Assembly (NCBI GenBank): GCA_903840015.1
Contig: CAIMEL010000022.1
Location: 1 to 56,613 of the forward strand
Direction: 5' to 3'
Source of the DNA: an uncultured bacterium
GTDB lineage: Bacteria; Patescibacteriota; Dojkabacteria; SC72
DNA: 56,613 nucleotides
Below, in pieces: positions 27,252 to 35,486 of the stretch (within the stretch, counting starts at the first letter, position 1; each line of letters opens with the position of its first letter). A model generated the notes under the pieces. That model was not told the origin of the DNA and made no database searches. It was given only the letters and a program-made list of their open reading frames with translations. Position numbers and translations under genes: made by a program.

Positions 27252-27280
27252 CCCATAGGCTATCTTATGTGAATTTAGAA

Positions 27281-27306
27281 GACCTCCTTCGGAGGTCTTT
27301 TTCTTT
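27281..27306 (+). terminator. Rho-independent terminator after rplA
   Basis: GACCTCCTTCGGAGGTC followed by a T-rich tract. Confidence 0.9.
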
Positions 27307-27308
27307 AG

Positions 27309-27337
27309 TTTACAAAAAACACAACATCCTATAGAAT
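27309..27337 (+). promoter_or_regulatory. Cassette 1 promoter
   Basis: TTTACA, 17 bp, TAGAAT. Confidence 0.65.
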
Positions 27338-27383
27338 ATGGTTTGTCTTTGCTCTTTAGGGAAACAGATCACGGGAGAATTAC

Positions 27384-27728
27384 ATGGCACAGGAAATAGT
27401 AGTAAACGGTCAGACGTACACCATTTTAAAAGAGTATGGAGATGCACATCTCGCACAGCTAGGAGATGACCATTTCTTACTCATTCCACGATTAAAGGAG
27501 GTATTAAAAATCAGGAAGTGCGAAGAGATTCGCGTTACTCTCCGGAACTGCAAAACACTTCTTCTCAACGAGCTATCGTTCGTTAGAAAATCCCCAAGAG
27601 ATTTTCAAAGCTCACGAGAGAATCAAGGCAGAGAGAGCAATATCTTCGTAAAAGTTGGAAAGAAATCCATGATTATTATCTTCGACAAAGAAATGGTCTT
27701 GGATCGAATCTGCGTTCCACAGTTCTAG
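27384..27728 (+). CDS. Cassette 1 small protein, unknown function (114 aa)
   Basis: ATG preceded by GGGAG; bounded by promoter and inverted repeat. Confidence 0.6.
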   Translation: MAQEIVVNGQTYTILKEYGDAHLAQLGDDHFLLIPRLKEVLKIRKCEEIRVTLRNCKTLLLNELSFVRKSPRDFQSSRENQGRESNIFVKVGKKSMIIIFDKEMVLDRICVPQF

Positions 27729-27754
27729 AAATCAAACCCTAAAGACAAGACAAA

Positions 27755-27826
27755 GTGAGTCTGGTAGAAGAATGCTGATTAGCAATATAGAAGTATTTCA
27801 GCTTCATCCATTTCTACCAGACTCAC
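27755..27826 (+). repeat. Long inverted repeat H1
   Basis: Perfect 15-bp arms GTGAGTCTGGTAGAA / TTCTACCAGACTCAC with inner GCTGA/TCAGC; similar to H2. Confidence 0.9.
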
Positions 27827-27834
27827 CACAACCC

Positions 27835-27863
27835 TTTACAAATCCCAGTATAAAGCGTAAAAT
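27835..27863 (+). promoter_or_regulatory. Cassette 2 promoter
   Basis: TTTACA, 17 bp, TAAAAT. Confidence 0.7.
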
Positions 27864-27910
27864 CACATTCCAAGCTCTTACCAATACACAGAAAAGGAGA
27901 TAACTACAGA

Positions 27911-28069
27911 ATGGTCAAGATATACACAGTATGCGGCAAGGAACGGTTTTCCTGGAATGGGAAGATATTCTTCCTCCTCTTCCACCGAAACGGTATATAC
28001 ATCGGGAAACACCAATCCAAAATCTACGTTTTCGTTGAGAAAACCGAGGAATTGATACAGATCGAATAA
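27911..28069 (+). CDS. Cassette 2 small protein (52 aa)
   Basis: MVKIYTVCGKERFSWNGKIFFLLFHRNGIYIGKHQSKIYVFVEKTEELIQIE; AAAAGGAGAT SD upstream; not in the supplied ORF track. Confidence 0.55.
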   Translation: MVKIYTVCGKERFSWNGKIFFLLFHRNGIYIGKHQSKIYVFVEKTEELIQIE

Positions 28070-28088
28070 CAGTATTGGTAAGCACAAA

Positions 28089-28163
28089 AGAGAGTCTGGT
28101 AAAGAATGCCTCGTGGGCTAAACACTTTCGCCTCATAGGCTTCATACCATTACCAGACTCTCT
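28089..28163 (+). repeat. Long inverted repeat H2
   Basis: Perfect 14-bp arms AGAGAGTCTGGTAA / TTACCAGACTCTCT with inner GCCT/AGGC. Confidence 0.9.
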
Positions 28164-28169
28164 CCTCTC

Positions 28170-28198
28170 TTTACATGGTTTGGGAATAAGGGTAAAAT
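28170..28198 (+). promoter_or_regulatory. Cassette 3 promoter
   Basis: TTTACA, 17 bp, TAAAAT. Confidence 0.7.
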
Positions 28199-28258
28199 TA
28201 CTTGGCAACAAGCCTGTTGCTCTTACCAACACCCTAAAAAGAAAAGGAGATTATTATC

Positions 28259-28429
28259 ATGGAATGCAAGTTCTGTAATAAGGAATGCAATGCTAATTGT
28301 CCGTGCTTCGCACTCAAGAAGCTCATTGAAACAGAAATTCTACGAGCGGAGGTGACGAAGCTTCCAGAAGAAGAAAAGATTGTATTCCTAGAGGAAGTAT
28401 TAGTAATGGAGGGATTGGCACCAATCTAA
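28259..28429 (+). CDS. Cassette 3 small Cys-rich protein (56 aa)
   Basis: MECKFCNKECNANCPCFALKKLIETEILRAEVTKLPEEEKIVFLEEVLVMEGLAPI; AAAAGGAGAT SD upstream; not in the supplied ORF track. Confidence 0.6.
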   Translation: MECKFCNKECNANCPCFALKKLIETEILRAEVTKLPEEEKIVFLEEVLVMEGLAPI

Positions 28430-28462
28430 GGTTTCAAAAATTAAAGCAACGGCTTTGTTAAG

Positions 28463-28516
28463 CAAGAGAGGATGATTGATTTCATCAACATATGTATCAC
28501 ATATCATCCTCTCTTG
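28463..28516 (+). repeat. Long inverted repeat H3
   Basis: Perfect 14-bp arms CAAGAGAGGATGAT / ATCATCCTCTCTTG. Confidence 0.9.
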
Positions 28517-28542
28517 ACCCTCCCCTCTCCTACTGCTATAAT
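28514..28542 (+). promoter_or_regulatory. Promoter upstream of rplJ-rplL
   Basis: TTGACC, 17 bp, TATAAT; the -35 overlaps the right arm of H3. Confidence 0.65.
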
Positions 28543-28628
28543 CAGCCTAGTTTGTAACCAAAGAAACAGGGTATCAAAATAAATCCCTGCGAGGTTATAC
28601 TACAATTCTATTTTAAAAATCTATTACA

Positions 28629-29732: not shown

Positions 29733-30401
29733 ATGGATTACTCACCACTAACATTGTGGATTTTAGAAAATGGTGTATCTGAACAAACGCTTGACTTGTT
29801 TGTAACTATAACAATACTCGCAACCATAGTTAGTATCGCAAGATATATATTTGGTTCCAAGACATATGGAATATATGCCCCTATAATTCTAGCCATAGCT
29901 TACTCCTACACAGGTTTTCGATATGGATTAGCAATTACCTTTGTTGTCATAGCTACTACCCTACTTTCTTATTCCATACTTAAGAAGATTAGGATGCACT
30001 ACATAACTCGTATTGCCATAAATTACTGTTTACTTTCAATCTCATTGGTTATTTTCTTTCTCCTAATCGGGAAGTATAGTTTAGGCTTGGACAATATGTC
30101 ACAAATACCCTCTCTGGCAGTAATATCTATTGCCGCCCTATCCGATTTCTTCATAAAGCAGTTTGTACAAAAATCTTTCAAGACTGCAGTTATGGTTCTT
30201 TTCTCAACACTAGTTGTTGCCTCAATTGGTTGGTATGTAATATCAAGAGATGTAGTCACAGCATACACCATAAACAACCTATGGTTAGTTCCCCTATTCA
30301 TAGCAATTAATCTAGGCATTGGCCAGTTTAAAGGCTTAAGAGTAAAAGATCTTTTCCGTTTTAACTCAATATTGAAAGAGAAGGACAATGTTTCAAAGTA
30401 A
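29733..30401 (+). CDS. 7TM membrane protein of an ATP-grasp/retropepsin locus
   Basis: About seven TM segments (KTYGIYAPIILAIAYSYTGFRYGL...), overlaps the start of the ATP-grasp gene; resembles the 7TM half of transglutaminase-7TM proteins. Confidence 0.6.
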   Translation: MDYSPLTLWILENGVSEQTLDLFVTITILATIVSIARYIFGSKTYGIYAPIILAIAYSYTGFRYGLAITFVVIATTLLSYSILKKIRMHYITRIAINYCLLSISLVIFFLLIGKYSLGLDNMSQIPSLAVISIAALSDFFIKQFVQKSFKTAVMVLFSTLVVASIGWYVISRDVVTAYTINNLWLVPLFIAINLGIGQFKGLRVKDLFRFNSILKEKDNVSK

Positions 30402-31851
30402 TAGAATCAAAGAAATTCTTGGACTTAACCGAAGGAACCAAGAGTACATCCGTCCATTCAATCCACCCTCTGCAAAAAAGATTGCAGATAACAAGATACT
30501 TACAAAGAAAGTGCTAGCAACAGAAGGTATCAATACCCCCTCTGTATACAAATTGGTAAAGAACAAAAAGCAACTTCAATTTCTAGACTGGGAATCACTC
30601 CCAAAAAGTTTTGTGATTAAGCCAAACCAAGGAACTGGAGGAAATGGAATCATAGTTTTCTATGGTAAAAAGAAGGGACAGAATTCCTGGATTAGACCAA
30701 ATGGAACTGTAATGAATCAGAAAGACATAGCATTACACATAGAGAATATCCTAGAAGGGCGATTCTCTATGGGCAATCGTAGTGATATAGCCATCATTGA
30801 AGAGAGAGTGAGAACAGATCCACTCCTTAAACAGTATTCCTACAAAGGAGTTCCAGATATCAGGATAATATGCTTCAATGGAGTCCCAATAATGGCAATG
30901 ACAAGGCTTCCAACGAAAAGATCAAATGGTACAGCAAATCTACACTCTGGGGCCATATGTACAGGACTTGATATTAGTACAGGAATAACCACCTACTCTA
31001 TGCAGATGAATCCCCGAACTATTTTTAGTGATACATACGAGAGTATTGAAAGCACAACAGATCTTAAGGAAAATAAAAAACTAAGTGGCATACAGATACC
31101 AAATTGGAATGACATTTTAACAATAGCCTTGAAGTGCCAACGAGCAAGCAAACTTGGTTATGTTGGTGTCGATATAGCATTGGACATAGAGAAAGGACCT
31201 GTCGTATTTGAACTAAACGCTAGACCGGGACTAGGAATTCAGGTTGCCAACCAAGCAGGTTTAAGGTGGAGACTTGAAAAGGTCAAAGGATTAGAGATAA
31301 AGAATATAAAGCATGGAATTAGAGTCGCACAAAATCTTTTTGGGGGAGAAATCGAAGAGAGTATCGAAGCCATCAGTGGGCGAAAAGTAGTAAGTATTAC
31401 TGAAAAAGTTGTCCTCTTTCACAAAGGATATGACAGTAAGAGTAAAAAGAATTCTATGCTGAAAGAAACAACAACAGCTTTTATGGACACAGGAATTCTT
31501 ACCTCAAGGATAACAAAGAATCTCATAAGTAGAATGGGCTATTTAGATACAGTAAAATACTTTGATTCTCTTAATATACCTAAGAAATTTGAATCCCTTC
31601 AATCAGCTCAGAAATTTATCGATGAGAACCTCTCTCTTTTTCAGGATACAGATATTAAGAGGCTTGCAAAAATTATTGATAATGGTGAGATATGCGTCAG
31701 ACCTGTATTAGAAATAAAGATTAAAATATCTGGTGATATTAAAGATGTTGATATGGTAATCACTGAAGAAACAGAACACTCCGTAGTCATTGGTCGAGGA
31801 GAATTAAAAGGATATTTAATAGATACAAGTAAAACATTTAGAAAAATATGA
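30388..31851 (+). CDS. RimK-like ATP-grasp (alpha-L-glutamate ligase-like) fused to a retropepsin-like (ATP-dependent zinc protease/RimB-type) domain
   Basis: ATP-grasp: FVIKPNQGTGGNGIIVF, VGVDIALDIEKGPVVFELNARPGLGIQ; C-terminal AFMDTGILTSRI and VVIGRGELKGYLIDTSKTF retropepsin-like motifs. Confidence 0.8.
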   Translation: MFQSNRIKEILGLNRRNQEYIRPFNPPSAKKIADNKILTKKVLATEGINTPSVYKLVKNKKQLQFLDWESLPKSFVIKPNQGTGGNGIIVFYGKKKGQNSWIRPNGTVMNQKDIALHIENILEGRFSMGNRSDIAIIEERVRTDPLLKQYSYKGVPDIRIICFNGVPIMAMTRLPTKRSNGTANLHSGAICTGLDISTGITTYSMQMNPRTIFSDTYESIESTTDLKENKKLSGIQIPNWNDILTIALKCQRASKLGYVGVDIALDIEKGPVVFELNARPGLGIQVANQAGLRWRLEKVKGLEIKNIKHGIRVAQNLFGGEIEESIEAISGRKVVSITEKVVLFHKGYDSKSKKNSMLKETTTAFMDTGILTSRITKNLISRMGYLDTVKYFDSLNIPKKFESLQSAQKFIDENLSLFQDTDIKRLAKIIDNGEICVRPVLEIKIKISGDIKDVDMVITEETEHSVVIGRGELKGYLIDTSKTFRKI

Positions 31852-32831
31852 AAGAATACAAAGAGTATTTAAAAGAAGCGGGCAATGTTCACTTGGCATA
31901 CTACCTTGAAGCTGCAGATTCTTTAGATATTAAATACTCTGTTTTAATACCTAGCTTACTCGCGTTGTTTGAATACAAGAATAAACATTGGTACATCATT
32001 AATACTGTAACTCCCCTAACCTCTTCTCCTAGCACAACAATCTGCAAGAGAAAACACCTTACAAATCTCATTCTGAAGAGATATGGACTTCCTGTACCAT
32101 ACCAGGAGAATATTGGAAGTGTTATAGATGCAATTAAATTTTTTAATAAACACAAGGATATTGTAATCAAACCTACACAGCAACTCGGAGGGCACGGCGT
32201 CTCAATCCTACCTCAAACAGAAGATCAGGTAATTCAGGCATATGAGAATGCTTTTAAGGAGTCACACTCCTCTGGGTCCAACAAAGTTATCGCGGAAGAG
32301 TTCTTTCATGGTGAGAATTACCGTTTCTTAGTCGTTGGCCAAAAGGTTATAGGTGTTGTCAGAAGAAAAGCAGCCCATGTTATCGGCAATAGCAAAAACA
32401 CTATAAGAGAATTAGTGCAGGCGGAGAATGACTTGCGCAAAGAGAAGCTCTTAATGCCGATCTTGATCGACAATGAAGTGAATCTAAAACTCACACGAAG
32501 CAATCTAGATTTAGACTCTATACCAGCTGAGGGAGAAGAAATTATCTTAAGATATAACTGCAATCTAACAACAGGAGGAACAACTGAAGAATGTATGCCA
32601 GAGGTTCACGACTACTACAAACAGATAGCCATCAAAGCGATTAGCTCTGTAGGATCAGAATTCGGAGGAGTTGATATCATCGCAGAGAATATCTCCAAGC
32701 CATCCAAAGTCGCAATCAATGAAATTAACTACAATCCAGGATTAAGGTTACATTACAAGGTAAATAAAGGTAATATTGTAAAAGTGGCCATACCCATTAT
32801 GGAATATATCCGAGATAAGTATATAAATTAA
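31848..32831 (+). CDS. ATP-grasp ligase, cyanophycin synthetase-like ATP-grasp domain
   Basis: DIVIKPTQQLGGHGVSI; NYRFLVVGQKVIGVVRRKAAHVIGNSKNTIRELV; GGVDIIAENISKPSKVAINEINYNPGL. Confidence 0.8.
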   Translation: MKEYKEYLKEAGNVHLAYYLEAADSLDIKYSVLIPSLLALFEYKNKHWYIINTVTPLTSSPSTTICKRKHLTNLILKRYGLPVPYQENIGSVIDAIKFFNKHKDIVIKPTQQLGGHGVSILPQTEDQVIQAYENAFKESHSSGSNKVIAEEFFHGENYRFLVVGQKVIGVVRRKAAHVIGNSKNTIRELVQAENDLRKEKLLMPILIDNEVNLKLTRSNLDLDSIPAEGEEIILRYNCNLTTGGTTEECMPEVHDYYKQIAIKAISSVGSEFGGVDIIAENISKPSKVAINEINYNPGLRLHYKVNKGNIVKVAIPIMEYIRDKYIN

Positions 32832-32842
32832 TATTTACCGAA

Positions 32843-34528
32843 ATGACAGATATAAGAGTTCAACAAGGAATAAACCTAGAATCAGAGATTTCCTTAATTA
32901 CAATCCCCATTCCTTTTAACAAAAACGTTGACACCCTACTTCGTCTAATTGGATCTTTTCATCCAATTTTTATTAAGTCATATACTTACGAAAAAAACTT
33001 AACAATAAAATCTCACCTAACATCCCTCTGGAGGGAAATAGGTACTGTTCTAATTAAACTCTCAAACGAGGAGATAAAATATGAGAAAGCAAAAGAGCTT
33101 TGTGTAGACGAGATTATACGAGAACGCATATCATCGATGTCAACGATTCCTTTACTATTTACATCACACAGTATGGGGCTTGAAACAACGCCCACACTAC
33201 TTCTGGATGAAAGAGTCACATATACAAAGGCATACAACAGACACTATACAATCGGTACTGGACGGAATTCACAGATCATATATTCAATATCTTCTAGTAT
33301 GGACTCCAAGATAGCAAAGGAGGTACAGAAAGATAAATGGTCTTCGAATTTGATGATCTCTCGGCTTGGACTACCAATCCCAAAGTGGGAGGTTGTAGAT
33401 AATGTTTCAGAACTCGAACGAATCTGGGGTCAGTATCAGAAGCCGGTAGTAATCAAACCGACTGGTCTTGTCGGAGGACATGGAGTTGTGGTTGGAATAG
33501 AAACTATCGAAGAGGCAAGAAAAGCATTCAAATTTGCTCAAGACGCCTGCAATACAAATATGCGTAAAGAGTGGCAGCAGAAGATAATGATACAAGAGCA
33601 AATCAAAGGAGAAGATTATCGTCTTTTGGTAATAAATGGGAAATTGGAGATTGCTACAAAGAGAATCCCTGCATTCATAGTAGGAGATGGGAAGCACAGT
33701 ATAGAGGATCTCATAATTGAGACAAACAAAGATCCTCGTAGAGATATATCGAACCCATCACATACGCTGAAGCCAATAGTTATAGACCAGCCATTAAGAG
33801 AATATCTAAAACAACAGAATCTAACTCTTGCATCTATACCTACGAAAGAAGAGAAAATATATGTTAGAAAAGTTGCCAGCATGAGCCAAGGGGGAATAAC
33901 TGAGGATTTTACAGACAAGGTAGGACCAGAGATAAAGGCAATTGTTGAAAGTCTTGCAACCTCAATACATGCATTCACTCTCGGGGTAGATGTAATGTGC
34001 CAAGACATCTCTAAACCACTGACCAAAGAGAATGGAGCTATTCTCGAATACAATACTATGCCAGAAGCATATCTCAACATGTACCCTGTGATAGGCAAGC
34101 AGAGAGAATATGTATTTAAGAGGTATCTAGAAGCTTTAATGAAAGAAAATAGAACAAAACAGATAGCTGTTGTTGGGAACTCTTCTAAAGACATTCCTAC
34201 ACTACTTCGCCAAAAAACATTCTTCAGCTCATATATCGGTGATAATGATACTATCGGAGAATATAAGAATGGAGAGATCAAAATAAACGGATTGGATATA
34301 AATAAAGACCTAGAGAAATGGAAGGCTATTGAGGGATTAAAAGTAAACGCATCATTAGATGCAATCATAATACACCATCGAGATTGGGAAGATGTTCAAG
34401 AATCAGGTTTAGGATTTGACAGAATCGATATGTTGCTTGTTGCCAAAGAGCTTACAAGCCAGAAAGAATTTAGTATTATCAAGAAGTACCAAAGAAGGAA
34501 ATATATAAATAAAATTAAAATATTTTAA
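32843..34528 (+). CDS. ATP-grasp ligase, cyanophycin synthetase-like, with N- and C-terminal extensions
   Basis: PVVIKPTGLVGGHGVVVGI; DYRLLVINGKLEIATKRIPAFIVGDGKHSIEDLI; LGVDVMCQDISKPLTKENGAILEYNTMPEA. Confidence 0.8.
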   Translation: MTDIRVQQGINLESEISLITIPIPFNKNVDTLLRLIGSFHPIFIKSYTYEKNLTIKSHLTSLWREIGTVLIKLSNEEIKYEKAKELCVDEIIRERISSMSTIPLLFTSHSMGLETTPTLLLDERVTYTKAYNRHYTIGTGRNSQIIYSISSSMDSKIAKEVQKDKWSSNLMISRLGLPIPKWEVVDNVSELERIWGQYQKPVVIKPTGLVGGHGVVVGIETIEEARKAFKFAQDACNTNMRKEWQQKIMIQEQIKGEDYRLLVINGKLEIATKRIPAFIVGDGKHSIEDLIIETNKDPRRDISNPSHTLKPIVIDQPLREYLKQQNLTLASIPTKEEKIYVRKVASMSQGGITEDFTDKVGPEIKAIVESLATSIHAFTLGVDVMCQDISKPLTKENGAILEYNTMPEAYLNMYPVIGKQREYVFKRYLEALMKENRTKQIAVVGNSSKDIPTLLRQKTFFSSYIGDNDTIGEYKNGEIKINGLDINKDLEKWKAIEGLKVNASLDAIIIHHRDWEDVQESGLGFDRIDMLLVAKELTSQKEFSIIKKYQRRKYINKIKIF

Positions 34529-34529
34529 A

Positions 34530-35486
34530 ATGAAATACCTCATAATTGATAAAAGACAACGAGTGGATATAGATGGTATGGGTGATATTCCTACTGCCTC
34601 TGCGAGATTACTAGAGGAACTAGCTAAAAAGAATCTCTCTGGAGATTTTGCATACAATGATCAACTTGAGTTTCTTTTTCTAGACGGGAAAGTTGCTATA
34701 AAAGCTAACGGTAAAGATATTACCGATTATTCACACATCATCTTCAGAGGCCATGCCCTACACAATGACAAAGAGTATCATTTCAAGAGGTACATCATAG
34801 AATACATAGACCAGTATAACGAAGAAAATCCTGAGAAGAAAATCATAGTACAGAATTCCGAAGCAATTAAAAGATTCCCCTATTACAACAAAATAGCCAT
34901 AGCAATGCTCTGTGCTCAAAATAACATTCCTCACTTTAACACATACTTTAGAACGGATGGCGATTATTCACAGGCGCGGGAGATGCTCAATCAATACCCT
35001 CTAATTATAAAAGAGTATTCTGGAGTAAATCGTGTAGAAATTATCGACGGAAAAGAGAAGATTAAGAAGAATGTATTCAAATTGGACACCTTAGAAGATT
35101 ATAAACAGGAAGGACTAAATGGTCAGGATCTCTCAAACTTCTTTTTGCAGGAGTTTTCTGACGCGGGAGAAGATTATCGAATATTTGTTAAACTTGGGAA
35201 AGTTATTGCAGGTTGGAAAAGGATAGCATCAGAAAGCTTTATGACTGTAAGTAAAGGGATCTATGAAATGTATAACGAACCAAATGATGAGATTAAAAAT
35301 ATTGCAGAAAAAATAGCTACTATACTTGATGCAGATTTCATGGCAGTAGACTTTATGAACATTAACGGTAAGCCATATATACAAGAAATTGGATTTCATC
35401 CAGGATATAAAGCGTACGAAACAAAGATAGAAAAAGGAGAGCCTGTAAATATTGCAGAAGCAATTGTTACTGCTTTCAAACAATAG
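34530..35486 (+). CDS. ATP-grasp ligase, RimK/glutathione synthetase-like
   Basis: YPLIIKEYSGVNRVEII; DYRIFVKLGKVIAGWKRIA; DADFMAVDFMNINGKPYIQEIGFHPG. Confidence 0.75.
   Translation: MKYLIIDKRQRVDIDGMGDIPTASARLLEELAKKNLSGDFAYNDQLEFLFLDGKVAIKANGKDITDYSHIIFRGHALHNDKEYHFKRYIIEYIDQYNEENPEKKIIVQNSEAIKRFPYYNKIAIAMLCAQNNIPHFNTYFRTDGDYSQAREMLNQYPLIIKEYSGVNRVEIIDGKEKIKKNVFKLDTLEDYKQEGLNGQDLSNFFLQEFSDAGEDYRIFVKLGKVIAGWKRIASESFMTVSKGIYEMYNEPNDEIKNIAEKIATILDADFMAVDFMNINGKPYIQEIGFHPGYKAYETKIEKGEPVNIAEAIVTAFKQ

Follow-up and report, generated by a model that had tools for sequence, protein, structure and literature searches.

Three consecutive small open reading frames (ORFs), each with its own promoter, leader and hairpin, lie between rplA and rplJ in the genome of an uncultured ultra-small bacterium (Ca. 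Dojkabacteria). What kind of transcription unit are they, and why do they stand inside a ribosomal-protein cluster? A preliminary description regarded them as a modular acquired array or as an undescribed family of small expressed genes. The stretch of DNA analysed here (56,613 nucleotides, the window) was compared with related genomes, and genome-wide questions were addressed by pattern and profile searches. All evidence is sequence, mostly from MAGs, and transcription starts were placed by consensus. The common plan claimed for the three units was borne out, every element being found where it had been reported (all on the + strand):

27277..27301, +: T-tailed intrinsic terminator (hairpin) of rplK-rplA, left edge of the array
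27309..27337, +: unit 1 promoter, TTTACA-17-TAGAAT, 79% identical with the sister species
27342..27361, +: unit 1 leader strand TTTGTCTTTGCTCTTTAGGG, pairs with 27737-27754
27351..27358, +: unit 1 boxA-like element GCTCTTTA, similar to the consensus GYTCTTTAANA (PMC5725501)
27384..27728, +: ORF1, orphan protein of 114 aa, all-beta in the structure prediction (mean pLDDT 78.9)
27737..27754, +: unit 1 trailer strand CCCTAAAGACAAGACAAA, directly abutting the hairpin (27754/27755)
27755..27826, +: hairpin 1, arms GTGAGTCTGGTAGAA/TTCTACCAGACTCAC (15 bp, 100% complementary), internal GAATG...CTTC
27835..27863, +: unit 2 promoter, TTTACA-17-TAAAAT
27874..27887, +: unit 2 boxA-like element and leader strand GCTCTTACCAATAC, pairs with 28072-28083
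27911..28069, +: ORF2, 52 aa, homolog in the sister species (E 8e-9)
28072..28083, +: unit 2 trailer strand GTATTGGTAAGC
28090..28162, +: hairpin 2, arms GAGAGTCTGGTAA/TTACCAGACTCTC, GAATG...CTTC
28170..28198, +: unit 3 promoter, TTTACA-17-TAAAAT
28201..28225, +: unit 3 leader strand, boxA-like element included, pairs with 28442-28462
28219..28226, +: unit 3 boxA-like element GCTCTTAC, inside the leader strand
28259..28429, +: ORF3, 56 aa, N-terminus rich in Cys, EGL.PI conserved at the C-terminus
28442..28462, +: unit 3 trailer strand TAAAGCAACGGCTTTGTTAAG
28463..28516, +: hairpin 3, arms CAAGAGAGGATGAT/ATCATCCTCTCTTG (14 bp, 100% complementary), 3' arm overlapping the rplJ -35
28514..28542, +: rplJ promoter, TTGACC-17-TATAAT (-35 TTGACC at 28514-28519), right edge of the array

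Layout and coding content of the units

The GCTCTT sequence common to the leaders is present at 27351, 27874 and 28219, all three ORFs are preceded by a Shine-Dalgarno sequence, and in each unit the 3' arm of the inverted repeat either ends shortly before the next -35 element or overlaps it. The number of promoter hexamer pairs alone is within chance (14 in 4 kb vs 9.9 ± 3.4 expected). Promoter and GCTCTT together occur at exactly three places in the 680-kb genome, which are the three units, and reversed-pattern controls gave 0 matches.

Sequence searches with the unit proteins (Pfam, NCBIfam, PHROG, PADLOC and PDB) returned no relatives, the ORF1 model had no match at E<=0.001 in PDB and BFVD (Foldseek), and an Rfam search of the units found nothing above chance, in agreement with the suggestion that the family is undescribed. 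The structure model of ORF3 was too weak for use; the protein is predicted to be Cys-rich and helical.

The closest relative of rplA is in a sister MAG (G022, locus L010; 81% amino-acid identity), which is labelled Microgenomates; the other closest sequences are Dojkabacteria contigs. Between the two species the promoters of the window units are 59-83% identical, the unit 1 promoter and its 3'UTR plus hairpin 78-79%, and rplA 78%. The ORFs are 60-62% identical at the nucleotide level, and the same alignment method gives ~61% on random sequence. The frames thus stay similar while the ORFs diverge to background. Homology to the sister species is still detectable in the proteins (E 3e-15 and 8e-9), which marks the ORFs as real genes that change fast. 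GC3 of the window unit ORFs is raised (0.45-0.63 vs 0.23-0.39 in 37 other window genes), as it is in relatives. Codon usage like that of ribosomal proteins, a possible sign of high expression, was rejected, as only the raised GC3 was found.

Signals at the transcript ends

BoxA is the NusB/S10 site, with the consensus GYTCTTTAANA in gamma-proteobacteria (PMC5725501). By resemblance only, GCTCTT followed by TAGGG or ACCAA is a boxA-like candidate NusB/S10 site. Twenty-eight units were collected from 16 family genomes, and the motif G[CT]TCNT is present in 25 of their leaders, 9-34 nt downstream of the -10 element, compared with a mean of 1.6 (maximum 7) in 500 shuffles of the leaders and with 3/47 ordinary window genes. 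In the three window units it is 25-32 nt from the start codon, within the 50 bp that characterize suhB-type sites. NusB and Rho are encoded in all eight genomes of the genus. The gene for RNase III, looked for in the own genome only, is present ~40 bp after nusB (G000:C4:152139-153213), an adjacency in keeping with the two acting together on boxA/leader-trailer RNA.

In each window unit the leader begins with a stretch complementary to what immediately follows the unit's own stop codon: TTTGTCTTTGCTCTTTAGGG pairs with CCCTAAAGACAAGACAAA in unit 1 and CTTACCAATAC with GTATTGGTAAG in unit 2, and the stretch in unit 3 is longer but interrupted. When the 3'UTRs were shuffled 1000 times, the observed complementarity was matched by 2, 7 and 1 shuffles for units 1, 2 and 3, respectively. 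Summed over the 28 units, cognate complementarity was 772.5 vs 567 ± 20 after reassignment of the trailers, and for a subset of 16 less related units it was 432 vs 323 ± 16; in both cases none of 20,000 reassignments reached the cognate value. This control is conservative because the units are homologous. Seventeen of the 28 units score above every ordinary window gene. The two strands differ in a compensating manner between units and species (e.g. TTTTTGCAG/CTGCAAAAA vs TTTTTGTAG/CTACAAAAA), and concerted changes gave TGTCTTTTTGCAG/CTGCAAAAAGACA in G022 and TGTCTTTTTGTAG/CTACAAAAAGACA in G004. In the global folds of most units the 5' end was part of the trailer helix, as with the first 20 nt of unit 1, where the helix abuts the hairpin (mean P 0.87), and with unit 2 (mean P 0.97); the exceptions were window unit 3, whose leader-trailer pairing is weak (mean P 0.26), G015, G018 and G022U3. 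A clear cognate helix is absent in ~6/28 units (e.g. G022U2, G013, G017, G024).

The hairpins covary as well. GAATG does not vary among the eight hairpins that were aligned, and it faces a YTTC-like bulge; of the stem cells 94.9% are paired, with two-sided changes in 10/15 pairs, and the covariation score was reached by 0/500 shuffles. When the partner was slid by one column, pairing fell to 27-35%. A search for terminator-like matches found no T-tract after the stem at any of the three hairpins, and these are not canonical intrinsic terminators, unlike those of rplA and rplL in the same region.

The complementarity of the leader to its own 3'UTR, the boxA identity and the invariant GAATG had been absent from the preliminary description; boxA and the leader-trailer helix are a stronger regularity than the modular layout.

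Comparison with pre-rRNA and with ordinary mRNAs

In E. coli pre-rRNA, boxA recruits NusB/S10 and RNase III cuts the leader-trailer helix (PMC10250234). The host's own 16S rRNA leader has GCTCCTTAAAA, followed by AGTGACAGGAAGTC, which is complementary to the spacer after 16S. BoxA combined with a leader-trailer helix is thus the anatomy of pre-rRNA, found also in the host's 16S operon, so that the window units look like mRNAs built on an rRNA plan. They share with the rRNA operon the boxA near the 5' end, the complementary flanks of the product and a host with NusB, RNase III and Rho; they differ from it in being small mRNAs (ORF 160-350 nt) with a shorter helix (11-18 bp) that sometimes includes boxA, and in the hairpin that follows the trailer. 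Functional boxA on mRNA is already known: according to the available text of PMC5725501, the suhB 5'UTR and candidate boxA mRNAs likewise have boxA within ~30 nt of a start codon, but in suhB it lowers the expression of a Nus factor gene, and a unit array, a trailer helix and a hairpin are not reported in that text. In the literature searched we found no description of small-mRNA cassettes with rRNA-like start and end signals, and nothing relevant linking boxA or hammerhead ribozymes with Patescibacteria/CPR.

The reading that we prefer, and to which we give about an even chance, is that the units are Dojkabacteria-specific single-gene transcription units which use the end-architecture of rRNA operons for mRNA. 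The roles of the parts can be deduced by analogy with pre-rRNA. The sigma70-like promoter would start a transcript whose first ~20 nt form one strand of a long-range helix and carry boxA. NusB-S10 bound to boxA would stay with RNA polymerase, protecting the enzyme from Rho and holding the leader. The trailer strand of the emerging 3'UTR would pair with the leader and so bring the two ends of the message together next to the hairpin that comes after. This hairpin, which abuts the next promoter, would set the 3' end, either through being cut by RNase III or by blocking exonucleases, and the outcome would be a message, both stable and insulated, that encodes a small protein of fast evolution. With NusB binding, antitermination, processing and mRNA stability so assigned, the units would most likely function as a class of mRNAs which are antiterminated through boxA, sealed at their ends and devoted to hypervariable orphan proteins. 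Several points speak against this model: the pairing of unit 3 is weak and some units have no clear helix, the helix covers part of boxA in several units and could compete with NusB, a short translated ORF should rarely be in need of antitermination, and for RNase III a helix of 11-18 bp is short.

Alternatively, the units could be ordinary small genes that have one promoter each and a transcription-ending hairpin, and in which neither the boxA-likeness nor the leader-trailer pairing serves any special function. A promoter of its own and a hairpin downstream do suit a monocistronic gene, the order of the units is the same in the sister species, and ORF3 has been inherited at one site in four genera. 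On the other hand, ordinary genes would not account for hairpins devoid of T-tracts next to the canonical terminators of rplA and rplL, for boxA frequency and cognate pairing far above the controls, or for frames that are kept while the ORFs drift to random-level identity. We consider this explanation rather unlikely, if still worth keeping in mind.

A further possibility, which appears less probable still, is that the trailer acts as an anti-boxA off-switch: it would recapture boxA and displace NusB-S10, thereby ending antitermination, and the hairpin or Rho would stop transcription before the next promoter. The helix indeed includes boxA bases in window units 1-3, G003, G005U1 and G006U1, and the hairpin is the next element after the trailer. 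However, in V1-V3, G004b, G014, G015, G016 and G005U2 the helix is upstream of boxA; therefore it is the closure of the 5' end that is the shared feature.

Distribution of the units and a long-leader class

The rplA-rplJ interval was compared in 24 genomes of the family in which the two genes are placed together (three further genomes, in which rplA was not found upstream of rplJ, were left out). Depending on the species it contains 0, 1, 2 or 3 units: in 18 genomes there are 1-3 units (short-leader type in 16, long-leader type in two), and in the remaining six the interval is near-empty or has another gene. In the slot upstream of rplJ, G021 (L121) has an NAD-epimerase-like gene, and G003 (L135), G026 (L118) and G020 (L122) have similar-looking NWG-containing ORFs. 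The sister species has the same three units in the same order, and on contig C43 (L180) a second three-unit array of the same design between ychF and rpsF. The ychF-rpsF site of the own genome (contig C7, L192) is ~110 bp only and without units, whereas G004, of another genus, has one unit upstream of rpsF (contig C5, L181). In the rpsF-site array the V2 and V3 hairpins are nearly identical. The ORF3 family is present in 6/86 class genomes from four genera, each time upstream of rplJ. The three ORFs are thus not a set fixed in all relatives and confined to one site. Unit number ranging from 0 to 3 and the second array in the sister indicate that the units are modular and have been gained and lost, but they are also partly inherited.

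Could a recombinase that recognizes the hairpins or the leaders move or exchange the units, as in integrons? The variable number at rplA-rplJ and the second array where the own genome is empty would fit, as would the raised GC3 of the unit ORFs and the interval of G029 (L141), where three tandem units have 93-96% identical leaders (288-298 nt) and ORFs of random-level identity. In G029 each leader is followed by a different ~90-aa ORF and a T-tailed hairpin; G028 (L140) has a single copy. Integron arrays likewise consist of head-to-tail, single-ORF units of variable number, each ending in a hairpin. In contrast to integron cassettes, the units have near-perfect, unit-specific hairpins, whose arms differ among units, and there is a promoter-like site in each unit where integron cassettes are promoterless. 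No integrase was visible by eye in the ORF list of the window, nor was a recombinase, target-site duplication or shared attC-like sequence seen, and the viral collection contained no relative of ORF1 and no copy of the promoter/leader. Moreover, duplication and gene conversion in the flanks account for the same facts. Given that ORF3 is inherited and that neither a recombinase nor a target-site duplication nor a viral relative turned up, we regard a mobile array as improbable; the modular acquired array proposed previously is supported in its modular part, while acquisition by a mobile element stays conjectural. Forty-six viral matches to a long-leader 15-mer were dismissed as chance, none of them having boxA plus trailer.

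A type I toxin-antitoxin system of the hok kind, in which the 5'-3' fold-back would yield a stable untranslated toxin mRNA held by antisense RNA, is most improbable: inhibitory intramolecular structure is known in type I toxin mRNAs (PMC11228461), and small ORFs, long-range 5'-3' pairing and tandem copies are shared, but the unit proteins are not hydrophobic peptides (ORF1 is predicted all-beta, ORF3 Cys-rich and helical), the Shine-Dalgarno is outside the predicted leader-trailer helix, boxA is present, and no convincing antisense promoter was seen, a weak minus-strand promoter match at 28279-28250 being the only hint of an antisense RNA.

The rRNA-like reading may gain from a sister class. 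A family search with the unit 1 promoter core plus boxA gave about 40 matches, many of which are predicted transcripts with CCTATAGTATAAT and TGCTCTTTAA, leaders of 100-350 nt and then small membrane or secreted ORFs. In 10/11 loci examined the leader has the motif AAATAG[CT]GTGTGATG (or a variant) and a matching trailer, e.g. CATCACAC[GA]CTA, with compensating leader/trailer variants in L168 and L179. The match counts (12-13 of 16) are modestly above those of random 16-mers, therefore the weight rests on fixed position and covariation. Directly after the trailer, ~1-1.4 kb downstream of the boxA promoter, 8/11 loci (L144, L151, L160, L161, L162, L166, L168, L177) have a type III hammerhead-like core. 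Rfam scores of these loci are below gathering (L151: RF00008, 36.7 bits, E 2.7e-4), yet the CUGAUGA/GAAA core is complete; across both strands of 94.7 kb of control sequence, the regular expression for the core had a single match. If the predicted ribozymes cut, the 3' end would directly follow the trailer strand, and this would favour 5'-3' closure as a principle common to the two classes.

More tentatively, and with doubt prevailing, both classes may belong to an unrecognized Dojkabacteria mRNA class of rRNA-operon design, with a boxA leader, 5'-3' closure and a dedicated 3'-end element (GAAUG-motif hairpin or type III hammerhead), which would serve as an interchangeable frame around the genes of hypervariable small proteins, next to ribosomal operons and at other sites. 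If so, boxA/Nus and the leader-trailer machinery, seen mainly as rRNA equipment, would build sealed-end mRNAs in some ultra-small bacteria, and such frames would hold a reservoir of small orphan proteins that change fast and that annotation does not see. Covarying helices, and the hammerhead which the sister class has in the same place, would offer a handle on co-transcriptional end closure, a question open for pre-rRNA too.

Two neighbouring features of the window deserve mention. The rplJ leader (28543-28628; CC..AGAAAC..GGTA..AAAATAAATCC..GCGAGG) is strongly conserved across the family and is probably the L10 autoregulatory leader; no match to it was reported in the Rfam search. Downstream of rplL, at 30388-35486, four consecutive ORFs of 318-561 aa resemble, by eye, ATP-grasp ligases of the cyanophycin-synthetase/RimK-like kind.
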